From NCBI GenBank assembly GCA_001914695.1, contig MNCZ01000099.1, positions 24,833 to 88,832 on the forward strand: DNA of 64,000 bases, in the 5' to 3' direction. This DNA is from Gammaproteobacteria bacterium 13_2_20CM_66_19 (GTDB lineage Bacteria; Pseudomonadota; Gammaproteobacteria; Steroidobacterales; Steroidobacteraceae). Each line of letters starts with the position of its first letter. The stretch's first letter is position 1. Positions 40,758 to 55,920 of this stretch are shown piece by piece. The notes beneath the pieces were generated by a model. The model was not told the origin of the DNA, searched no databases, and saw nothing but the letters and a program-made list of their open reading frames with translations. The translations under genes and the position numbers were made by a program.

Positions 40758-45250
<4,493 letters not shown>

Positions 45251-45254
<4 letters not shown>

Positions 45255-47011
45255 GCGGCACGGTCGCAACGACAGGCGTCGCGATCATCGCCGACGACGA
45301 GGATCTCGGCCGCCTGCTGCTCGCCGAGGCGGTCAGCGCGAGCGGACTCACGCCGCTGGCCTTCGACAACGGCGGGGCCGCACTCGAGGCCGCCCGCTCG
45401 CAGGATGTCGCGATCGTGCTCCTCGACGTCGACATGCCGGGCCTCGACGGCTACTCGGTGTGCCGCCGGCTGCGCTCGGAGCCGCGCTTCGCCACCGTGC
45501 CGATCGTGATGGTGACCGGGCACGAGGACGCCGAGGCCATCGGCCGCGCCTTTGACGCCGGAGCCACGGACTTCATCAGCAAGCCGGTCAACTGGGCCCT
45601 GCTGCCGCGACGCCTCGATTACATCCTGCGCAATGCCGCCGCCGCCGAGCGTATCGAGCGTCTCGCGTACTTCGACCCGCTCACCGGGCTGCCGAACCGC
45701 CAGTGCTGCATCGAGACCGCCGAGCGGCTCGTGCCCGAGGCGGCGCACCTTCAGGAAGCCGTGGCGATCGTGTACCTCGACCTCAACAGCTTCAAGCGGG
45801 TGAACGACACCTTCGGCCACTCGGTGGGAGATGCGGTTCTGCGTAACGTCGCCGGGAAGCTCAGCGGCGTGCTCGAGGGCTTCAGGGCCGAGAACCAGCA
45901 CCTGTCGCTCTCGCGCTTCGGCGGCGACGAGTTCGTGATCCTGCTGCGGCATCCCGCGGCGCGCGCGCGCGCCATCTCGATCGCGGAAGCCTGCGCGGCG
46001 GCGTTCAAGGAGCCGATTCTCTACGAGGGGCTGGAGTTCTACCCGGCGCCCAGCGTCGGGCTCGCCGTCTATCCGGACGACGGCGGCGACGTCGTCACCG
46101 TGCTCAAGCACGCCGACACCGCCATGTACCAGGCCAAGAGCGGCGCCGCCGAGTCGGTTGCCGTCTACACGCCTGCGATGAGCAGCCGGTTGAGCAACTG
46201 GCTCGACCTCGAGGCGCGGCTGCGCCGCGCTGTGGCCGAGGATCGCCTGCGCCTGGTGTATCAGCCCAAATTCCGTCTGCGGGACAATCAACTGGTGGGC
46301 GTCGAAGCGCTGCTGCGCTGGTGCGACTCGGAGTACGGCGATATCCCGCCGACGCGCTTCATCGAGATCGCCGAGGACAGCGGCCTGATCCTCGACATCG
46401 GCAGCTGGGTGGTGCGCGCGGTGTGCAGGCAGCTGCGCGCGTGGCTAGACCGCGGCTTCACCGTGCCGGTGGCCATCAACGTCTCGGGCAAGGACCTGCT
46501 GCATGGCGACCCGGCGCGCGTCATCGCCGAGGAGACGGCGGCGGCCATGATTCCTGCGTCTCTGATCGAGGTGGAGATCACCGAATCGGTGCTGATCAAG
46601 GACTCCGCCGCCGGGCGCACCGCGCTCAAACGGCTGCGCGAGCTCGGCTGCCGGGTCGCGCTCGATGACTTCGGCACCGGCTATTCCTCGCTCGCCTACA
46701 TCACCCGCTTTCCGCCCGACCGCATCAAGATCGACAAGGCGTTCGTGCACGACGTGGACACTGCCGCGGGCAACGCCGCCATCGCCAACGCCATCCTGTC
46801 GCTGGCCGAGAGCCTCGGGGTCACCGTGACGGCCGAGGGGATCGAGCGTCCCGGGCAGCTCGAGTGGCTGCGCTCGCGAGGCTGTCAGGAGGCGCAGGGG
46901 TTTCTCCTCGCGCGTCCGCTTTCGCCCGCGGATCTCGAGCGGCAGTTCCTCGCGCCCGCGAAGCCCACCGCGGAGGCGGAAACGCTTGCGCCGCGCTCGG
47001 GCCGGTTCTAG
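45251..47011 (+). CDS. Response regulator with REC, GGDEF and EAL domains
   Basis: GVAIIADDEDLGRLLLAEA...IVLLDVDMPGLDGYSVCRRL; LSRFGGDEFVILL; YQPKFRLRDNQLVGVEALLRW...VALDDFGTGYSSLAYI...TAEGIE; ATGA overlap with the upstream kinase. Confidence 0.95.
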
Positions 47012-53225: not shown

Positions 53226-53259
53226 CGCCTTCGTTCCCGTCCGTCCCAGTGCCGCAAAC

Positions 53260-53280
53260 AAAAAAAGGGCCCCAAGGCCC
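53260..53280 (-). terminator. Intrinsic terminator 2 in the rimP leader (GGGCC-TTGG-GGCCC then T7)
   Basis: Minus strand GGGCCTTGGGGCCCTTTTTTT read directly. Confidence 0.7.
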
Positions 53281-53284
53281 ACCG

Positions 53285-53316
53285 AAAAACAAAAAGCCCC
53301 GCGGGGGGCTTTCGGT
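53285..53316 (-). terminator. Intrinsic terminator 1 in the rimP leader (AAAGCCCC-N4-GGGGCTTT then TTTTTGTTTTT)
   Basis: Minus strand AAAGCCCCCCGCGGGGCTTTTTGTTTTT; flanked by an alternative outer ACCGAAA/TTTCGGT repeat (53281-53287, 53310-53316). Confidence 0.75.
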
Positions 53317-53524
53317 CATATCTTATTCTCGGGGGCGCCGCGCTCTTTAGTCCGCTCCGCCGCGCGACACCAGCCACCCGTCCCCGCACGGCCGCAGCCC
53401 GCGCGGGGCGCGCATTTTACCGGAACCGGGGCGCGCAGGGAACAGCGCGGCAAAGGGCGCCGGGCTTCGGGCAGCGCGCCGCGCCCGGTCCTCGCCCTGG
53501 ACCCCCCGGTCTCCACCCTGGACC

Positions 53525-53534
53525 TGTATAGACA
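53525..53534 (+). promoter_or_regulatory. Candidate HutC operator (TGTATAGACA)
   Basis: Near-palindromic CTGTATAGACAAC just upstream of the hutC ATG; resembles known HutC sites of the TGTATATACA type. Confidence 0.5.
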
Positions 53535-53556
53535 ACTCGGCCCTCCCGGTGCCACC

Positions 53557-54309
53557 ATGGCGCCCCTCGCAGTCCCTCGCGATCCGCCCCCAATGTCGCT
53601 GCCCCAGGCCGCCGCCCGCTACCTCCAGGTGAAGGACTTCATCCTCGAGCGGATCGCGGGCGGGGCGCTGCGTGCCGGCGAGCGCGTGCCCTCCGAGAAC
53701 GAGCTCACCCGCACCCTGACCGTCTCGCGCATGACCGCGAACCGGGCGCTCCGCGAGCTGGCCGCGGACGGGGTGCTGGTCCGGGTGGCCGGAGTCGGCA
53801 CCTTCGTCGCCGAGCAGCGCGTGCACGCCCACCCCCTCGAGGTGCGCAACATCGCCGACGAGATCCGCGCGCGCGGCAGGCAGCATCGCGTGCGCGTGCA
53901 CGCGCTCGAGTCGGTGAGCGCCTCGCGCGAGCTCGCCGAGCGCTGCGGGGTCAAGCCCGGCGCGGCGCTCGACTACTCGCTCCTCACTCATTTCGAGGAC
54001 AGCACCCCGCTCCAGGTCGAGGAGCGCTACGTCAATCCGCAGGTCGCTCCCGGCTACCTGCGCAACGACTTCTCCCACATCACGCCCCACGAGTTCCTGA
54101 TCCGCGTGGCGCCGCTGCAGCGCGCCGAGCACATCGTGCGCGCGGTGGTGCCGGAGCGGCGTATCCGCCGGCTCCTCAAGCTCGAGGGGGACGAGGCGTG
54201 CTTGCTGATCCTGCGCCGCACCTTCTCCCGCGGACGTGTCGCCAGCGTCGCCGACCTCTATCATCCCGGTTCCCGCTACGAGCTCGCGGCGAACAGCCAG
54301 CCGAGGTAG
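53557..54309 (+). CDS. hutC: Histidine utilization repressor, GntR/UTRA family
   Basis: [67 protein letters not shown]...[16 protein letters not shown]; start 53557 or 53593. Confidence 0.93.
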
Positions 54310-54313
54310 TGCC

Positions 54314-55920
54314 ATGAACGACTCCGTAAAGACCCGCCCGCCGCTGCGCGCCCCGCGCGGCACGGCCCTCTCGTGCCGAAGCTGGCTCACGGAGGCGCCG
54401 CTGCGCATGCTGATGAACAACCTCGATCCCGAGGTCGCCGAGCGGCCGCAGGAACTCGTGGTCTACGGCGGCATCGGCAAGGCGGCCCGCAACTGGCAGT
54501 GCTTCGACGAGATCGTGGCGGCGCTCAAGGCGCTCGGGGACGACGAGACGCTGCTCATTCAGTCCGGCAAGCCGGTCGGCGTATTCCCGACGCACGCAGA
54601 CGCCCCGCGCGTGCTGCTCGCCAACTCCAACCTCGTGGCGCGCTGGGCGGACTGGGATCACTTCAACGAGCTCGATCGCAAGGGGCTCATGATGTTCGGC
54701 CAGATGACCGCCGGCTCCTGGATCTACATCGGCAGTCAGGGCATCGTGCAGGGCACCTACGAGACCTTCGTGGAGATGGGGCGCCAGCACTACGGCGGGC
54801 GGCTCGCCGGCAAGTGGATTCGATGCTCGCCGTCGAGTGCCGCCCCGAGCGCATCGCCAAGCGCTTGAAGACGCGCTACCTCGACGTCGAGGCGCGAACG
54901 CTGGACGAGGCTCTCGAGATCCTCGAGCGCGCGCGGCGCGCCGCGAAGCCGGTGTCGGTCGGCCTGCTCGGCAACGCCTGCGAGGTGCTCCCGGAGCTCC
55001 TGCGCCGCGGCGTGCGCCCCGATGCGCTGACCGATCAGACCTCGGCGCACGACCCGGTCAACGGCTATCTGCCGGGCGGCTGGACGCTCGAGAAGTGGGA
55101 CCGCCTGCGCGGTGAGGATCCGGCGCAGGTCGCGCGCGAAGCGCGCGCCTCGATGCGCGCTCACGTGGAGGCGATGCTCGAGTTCCAGAAGCAGAAGGTC
55201 CCGGTTTTCGACTACGGCAACAACATCCGCCAGGTCGCCCTCGACGAGGGCCTGAAGGAGGCCTTCGCCTTCCCCGGCTTCGTGCCGGCGTACGTGCGGC
55301 CGCTGTTCTGCCGCGGCATGGGTCCCTTTAGATGGGTTGCGCTCTCGGGCGATCCGGAGGACATCTACCGCACGGACAAGAAAGTGCGCGAGCTCCTGCC
55401 AGGCGACACGCACCTGCATCACTGGCTCGACATGGCGCGCGAGCGCATCCAGTTCCAGGGGCTGCCGGCGCGCATCTGCTGGGTGGGGCTCGGCGACCGG
55501 CACCGCCTCGGCCTCGCCTTCAACGAGATGGTCGGTCGCGGTGAGCTCAAGGCGCCCATCGTGATCGGCCGCGATCACCTCGATTCGGGCTCCGTCGCCA
55601 GCCCCAACCGCGAGACCGAAGCGATGAAGGACGGCTCGGACGCGGTGGCCGACTGGCCGCTGCTCAATGCCCTCCTCAACACCGCGAGCGGCGCCACCTG
55701 GGTGTCGATCCATCACGGCGGCGGCGTCGGCATGGGCTACTCGCAGCACGCCGGCGTGGTGATCGTGTGCGACGGCACCGCGGCGGCTGCGCGCCGCATC
55801 GAGCGCGTGCTGTGGAACGATCCGGCGAGCGGCGTGATGCGCCACGCCGACGCCGGCTATGAGAGCGCCATCGAGTGCGCCCGGGCGCGCGGCCTCAACC
55901 TGCCGTTCCTGCGGGGCTGA
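54314..55920 (+). pseudogene. hutU: Urocanate hydratase, frameshifted by an internal ~64-nt deletion
   Basis: N-part [61 protein letters not shown]...[12 protein letters not shown] in one frame (to 54820); C-part [22 protein letters not shown]...GLNLPFLRG in another; the segment between (family [21 protein letters not shown]) is missing. Confidence 0.88.

Follow-up and report, generated by a model that had tools for sequence, protein, structure and literature searches.

What do two hairpins, each followed by a run of T, do ahead of rimP? The question arises from a 64,000-nt stretch of DNA (the window) from an organism represented solely by a metagenome-assembled genome. An earlier note had described both hairpins and a candidate −10 hexamer upstream of them, and had proposed a two-terminator leader through which NusA feeds back on its own operon. 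Both hairpins lie where that note placed them, on the minus strand, as does the −10 hexamer (Table 1). Pfam searches identified RimP, NusA, IF2, RbfA, and TruB in that order, indicating an intact rimP-nusA-infB-rbfA-truB operon; the second KH domain of nusA falls below the Pfam cut-off. Elsewhere in the window, a hybrid histidine kinase with a two-component regulator propeller (40758-45254, plus strand) is followed by a response regulator-GGDEF-EAL protein (about 45250-47011, plus strand).

Table 1. Features of the rimP leader, its operon, and the neighboring gene in the window.
Feature	Position	Strand	Description
hutC	ATG 53593	plus	GntR and UTRA domains; next gene upstream, divergent from rimP
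Promoter	53442-53414	minus	−35-like TTCCCT (53442-53437), 17-nt spacer, −10 TAAAAT (53419-53414)
5′ domain, model R1	53413-53325	minus	P1 hairpin, ACGGGTGGCTGG, P2 hairpin
P1	53408-53382	minus	GC hairpin at presumed 5′ end
P2	53380-53330	minus	Hairpin after ACGGGTGGCTGG; outer strand overlaps the ACGGGTGGCTGG segment
T1 with outer extension	53316-53281	minus	Longer T1 form; ACCGAAA (53316-53310) / TTTCGGT (53287-53281)
T1	53313-53291	minus	GAAAGCCCC-CCGC-GGGGCTTTTT; intrinsic terminator, CCCC..GGGG stem
T2	53280-53260	minus	GGGCC-TTGG-GGCCC-TTTTTTT; intrinsic terminator, GGGC..GCCC stem; stem-loop 53280-53267, T7 tail 53266-53260
rimP	53225-52764	minus	RimP_N and C-terminal SH3 domains; first gene of the operon
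nusA	52728-51235	minus	497 aa; NusA_N, S1, KH, and C-terminal HHH domains
infB (IF2)	51230-48651	minus	Pfam
rbfA	48651-48208	minus	Pfam
truB	48202-47321	minus	Pfam

To place the hairpins relative to a promoter, we compared 49 leaders, comprising that of the window, those of its genus, and those of its nearest neighbors. A −10 hexamer was found in all of them (TACAAT in 26, TAGAAT in 21, TAAAAT in the window, and TAGACT in 1), with a −35-like hexamer 16 to 18 nt upstream in 45; the promoter is thus conserved genus-wide. From its position, we infer a transcription start near 53407. Because the neighboring hutC gene is divergent, T1 and T2 cannot terminate the transcript of an upstream gene, a role that we rejected on these grounds; they would act only on transcripts from the leader promoter, i.e., as attenuators. 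The intergenic region common to hutC and rimP also contains a HutC-operator-like palindrome (CCTGTATAGACAA, 53523-53535). TTGTCTATACAGG recurs in several relatives, suggesting that HutC may also bind just upstream of the rimP promoter. The urocanase gene, hutU (54236-55920, plus strand), looks frameshifted, by mutation or assembly error, because it is split over two overlapping frames (54236-54868, N-terminal domain; 54373-55920, the rest).

Strict patterns for the two terminators (GCCCCN4GGGGCTTTT for T1; GGGCN6GCCCTTTTT for T2) each occurred once in the 64-kb window and in 0/100 dinucleotide shuffles. The end of the T2 tail is 34 nt from the rimP ATG, and that of the first T run of T1 is 65 nt away; a second T run, GTTTTT, also follows T1. 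By itself, the T1 hairpin has a folding energy of −13.6 kcal/mol, compared to −8.7 kcal/mol for T2, and both are predicted to form in the nascent window transcript (probabilities of 0.99 and 0.95, respectively). A loose terminator scan of the window was not discriminating (4 sites versus 2.7 expected), and the folding energy of the whole leader was no better than that of shuffled sequences (z = −0.21). With a leader of such ordinary stability, the case for T1 and T2 rests on their conservation and not on folding energy.

A potential antiterminator is listed for the tandem variant of the rimP leader, and the earlier note had suggested that an outer repeat bracketing the first hairpin could form an alternative structure. 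The repeat, ACCGAAA/TTTCGGT, is indeed present; however, it lengthens T1 instead of replacing it (−15.9 kcal/mol versus −13.6 for T1 alone) and leaves T2 free, so that the two coexist. The lower stem that it adds is only loosely kept among relatives. Because the repeat stacks on T1, leaves T2 intact, and is loosely kept, we rejected it as an antiterminator. Arms of T1 and T2 are able to cross-pair, at −20.3 versus −26.5 kcal/mol, that is, 6 kcal/mol weaker. Neither these cross-pairing energies nor upstream competition with T1 among relatives yielded a conserved antiterminator. Sequestration of a T1 arm by the upstream domain was rejected as well: the probability of T1 in the nascent RNA ranged from 0.33 to 1.0 among relatives, without pattern. 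An 85-aa open frame (MTESPPRGFLFFGG..., 53319-53062, minus strand) begins just before T1 and crosses both terminators. We rejected it as a leader peptide, given that an ATG just before T1 was present in only 9/49 leaders and hence is not conserved in the genus.

Judged by its sequence features, the tandem-terminator leader is the known rimP leader (RF01770) in its gammaproteobacterial tandem form. Among predicted attenuators, Naville and Gautheret (2010, PMC2965389) found the rimP leader to be the commonest. Its GGGc..gCCC terminator is conserved in their account, and several gammaproteobacteria add a second, upstream terminator with the inverse CCCg..cGGG motif. In the window, the element occupies the 5′ untranslated region of the rimP-nusA-infB operon; GGGCCTTGGGGCCCTTTTTTT (T2) provides the GGGc..gCCC stem and U stretch, and AAAGCCCCCCGCGGGGCTTTTT (T1) provides the upstream CCCg..cGGG terminator of the gammaproteobacterial variant. 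When 421 bases were searched, RF01770 was the top Rfam match of the leader (53342-53260; E = 0.012; 28.3 bits), and the alignment spanned the full model (1-102). No match in the window or the whole genome exceeded the RF01770 cut-off of 47 bits, a gathering threshold that is Rfam's own and is not among the features by which this leader was defined in print. Leaders with the same T1-T2 layout in other families of the order also scored below this cut-off (29 to 36 bits), so the low score appears to reflect a narrow RF01770 model and not a different element. The window leader thus shares with the tandem form of RF01770 its gene, position, order of the two terminators, inverse stem motifs, and full-length covariance-model alignment. 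It differs in scoring below the gathering cut-off, in being GC-rich, in having a structured 5′ domain before T1, and in a shorter T1-T2 spacer (15 nt stem to stem).

Two characterized leaders offer further points of comparison. The metY-rimP-nusA-infB leader of Escherichia coli (PMC6511841) also has two terminators (t1 and t2) before rimP in the same operon; there, however, metY (tRNA-fMet2) heads the operon and RNase III sites are present, whereas the window has P1-P2 in metY's place. The earlier note had suggested that a two-terminator version here would be a direct feedback device. We do not regard the form as special to this locus, since it is already published and is common across gammaproteobacteria. 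The nusA-operon leader of Bacillus subtilis, as cited in PMC12288461, likewise contains an intrinsic terminator; according to that account stimulation of attenuation by NusA has been demonstrated there, whereas for the window leader it is a prediction.

To determine how widely T1 and T2 are conserved, we surveyed leaders from 90 genomes, taken at every level between the genus of the window and its order. T1 was found in nearly all of these relatives at the same place, and T2 was recognized in 80/90. Covariation among relatives, to which the earlier note had looked for confirmation, was observed in T2 as a compensatory change of the closing pair (T-A in 54 relatives, C-G in 12). We then extended the survey to single genomes from 69 further gammaproteobacterial families, scoring terminators within 260 nt of rimP. 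At least one terminator preceded rimP in 67/69 families, two or more did so in 31/69, and a GGGC..GCCC-type terminator was present in 48/69. A tRNA-fMet gene (metY) lay upstream on the same strand in 40/69 families, and tandem terminators were also found in 12 of the 29 class leaders without an adjacent tRNA-Met. These counts indicate that a pair of terminators ahead of rimP is common in the class and suggest that the ancestral order was likely tRNA-fMet, T1, T2, rimP.

Within the order, metY is likewise found upstream of T1 in several families, and in other families T1 directly follows tRNA-fMet. In the Steroidobacteraceae genus of the window, metY is absent between the promoter and T1, the place that it occupies in most of the gammaproteobacterial families sampled. 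ARAGORN detected no tRNA in the 64-kb window, and no tRNA match at E ≤ 1 was obtained in the scanned loci of the genus and its nearest neighbors. T1 is nearly unchanged throughout this genus, which lacks metY at rimP. Together, these comparisons suggest that T1 probably descends from the metY terminator and was retained after metY was lost; T2 is the ancient rimP-leader terminator. We rejected the 5′ domain as a remnant of tRNA-fMet, as it gave no tRNA signal and bears only an acceptor-like CGGGG..CCCCCG resemblance.

Several relatives show other arrangements at this position. In one family (leaders L068, L070, and L073), a partial relic of a lost tRNA-fMet gene, the 3′ end CCCCCGCTACCA, lies upstream of T1; in the same three leaders, a TGGTAG comes after CCCCCGCTACCA and, being complementary to the CCA end, would pair with it. 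CTACCA..TGGTAG-like motifs occur in L065, L077, L085, and L087, likewise without a recognizable tRNA. In another family (L082, L084, and L088), the sole terminator, a CCCC..GGGG hairpin, immediately follows tRNA-fMet and lies shortly before the rimP start. T2 is missing from these three leaders, in which nature thus tests a leader with a single terminator.

The segment that separates the promoter from T1 is a conserved, folded RNA of ∼90 nt, which was not among the observations of the earlier note. A covariance model of this domain (R1) matched the window with 67.5 bits, and no other match there exceeded 16 bits. In a MAFFT alignment of 15 leaders (A1), 5 pairs had double changes (3/500 shuffles), and the 12 double-change cells were reached by 0/500 shuffles. 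In an alignment of 20 model matches (A4), which was fitted to the structure and is hence biased towards the R1 fold, 9 pairs were changed on both sides (0/500 shuffles). Genomes with R1 had a single copy each, which invariably preceded rimP. With strict filters, it was found in 12/49 genomes of the genus, including that of the window, and in 0/31 other genomes of the order; run on the 90 leaders, the model gave 16 matches at E < 0.001. The rest of the genus carries a two-hairpin domain of similar layout and different sequence (model R2). R2 matched its own group well; its covariation support is weak because the sequences of this group are too alike. Neither R1 nor R2 matched an Rfam family above that family's cut-off. 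In the rest of the genus, we also considered a pseudoknot between a GGCUG bulge in P2 and CAGCC before T1, and rejected it since it did not rise above shuffles (113/500). By themselves, the tandem terminators are unremarkable, and what sets this leader apart as a variant is its genus-specific 5′ domain. That the domain (P1, ACGGGTGGCTGG, and P2) is a new genus-specific regulatory RNA controlling readthrough of T1, for example as a binding site for RimP, NusA, or IF2, is a proposal to which we give rather low credence.

Taken as a whole, the leader is best explained as a transcription-attenuation leader of the rimP-nusA-infB operon in the gammaproteobacterial tandem form, a reading we consider probable. 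RNA polymerase starting near 53407 would first transcribe the ∼90-nt structured 5′ domain and then meet T1 and T2 in series. We infer that these sites terminate transcription, that they do so incompletely, and that NusA acts as the regulator. A polymerase would have to pass both terminators to transcribe rimP-nusA-infB-rbfA-truB, and operon dosage is most likely set by the readthrough fraction. Readthrough is most likely lowered by NusA itself, in a negative feedback, and is possibly raised by cold-shock proteins. NusA has been proposed as the best candidate regulator of the rimP leader (PMC2965389), and the NusA encoded here has its N-terminal, S1, KH, and C-terminal HHH domains. The B. subtilis precedent invoked in the earlier note is sound as far as PMC12288461 reports it: NusA is established there as controlling its own operon through attenuation in the leader. 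In E. coli, transcripts of the operon rise in mutants with reduced NusA termination (PMC6511841). By analogy with these systems, NusA feedback is the regulation we favor in this organism, although tentatively and at slightly under even odds.

Other readings of the same leader were weighed against NusA-responsive attenuation. In the first, the leader would be unregulated: T1 would be a relic of the terminator of the lost metY, T2 would work at constant efficiency, and together they would fix a lower level of expression with no modulating factor. The tRNA-fMet genes that directly precede T1 in other families and the lack of a conserved antiterminator are in line with this idea. However, a useless relic would not stay nearly unchanged, as T1 does in the genus without metY, and effects of NusA, Csp, and ProQ on the operon or its leader have been published for other bacteria. 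We regard an unregulated leader as somewhat unlikely. It is unlikely, too, that the main signal is antitermination by CspA-family proteins rather than NusA, such that a rise in Csp melts T1 and T2 and induces nusA, infB, and rbfA. CspA, CspC, and CspE do decrease termination in the metY-rpsO operon of E. coli and raise nusA and rbfA expression (PMC9765468, PMC12562117). Nevertheless, nothing in the window sequence is specific to Csp, and in B. subtilis autoregulation by NusA is the better documented control; the two are not exclusive.

Alternatively, the promoter, 5′ domain, and T1 could constitute a small-RNA gene of their own (∼120 nt, folded from the first bases on and ending at T1), with rimP expressed by leakage past T1 and T2. 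The 5′ domain is compact, covarying, and single copy, and the rimP leader is listed among ProQ-bound small RNAs derived from attenuators (PMC5391140). Against this, no target or role in trans is known, the genome, which is incomplete, yielded no ProQ gene, and the 5′ domain was never found away from rimP, a better fit to a cis element; we therefore consider a separate small-RNA gene quite improbable. Finally, chance, functionless hairpins in a GC-rich intergenic region, a notion that the loose scan (barely above shuffles) and the unexceptional stability of the leader might have encouraged, are refuted by the conservation of the terminators at one position throughout the order and the class, and have next to no likelihood; the strict T1 and T2 patterns, moreover, arose in none of the 100 shuffles.

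We conclude that, in its tandem terminators, the NusA- and IF2-encoding operon follows a design that was already known and is almost universal. To this, the comparison among genomes adds that T1 apparently derives from the metY terminator and was kept after the gene was lost, and that a conserved folded RNA, unlisted in Rfam, fills the vacated place of metY in one genus. If this 5′ RNA is regulatory, the genus would represent a natural experiment on how the leader of an essential operon is rebuilt.
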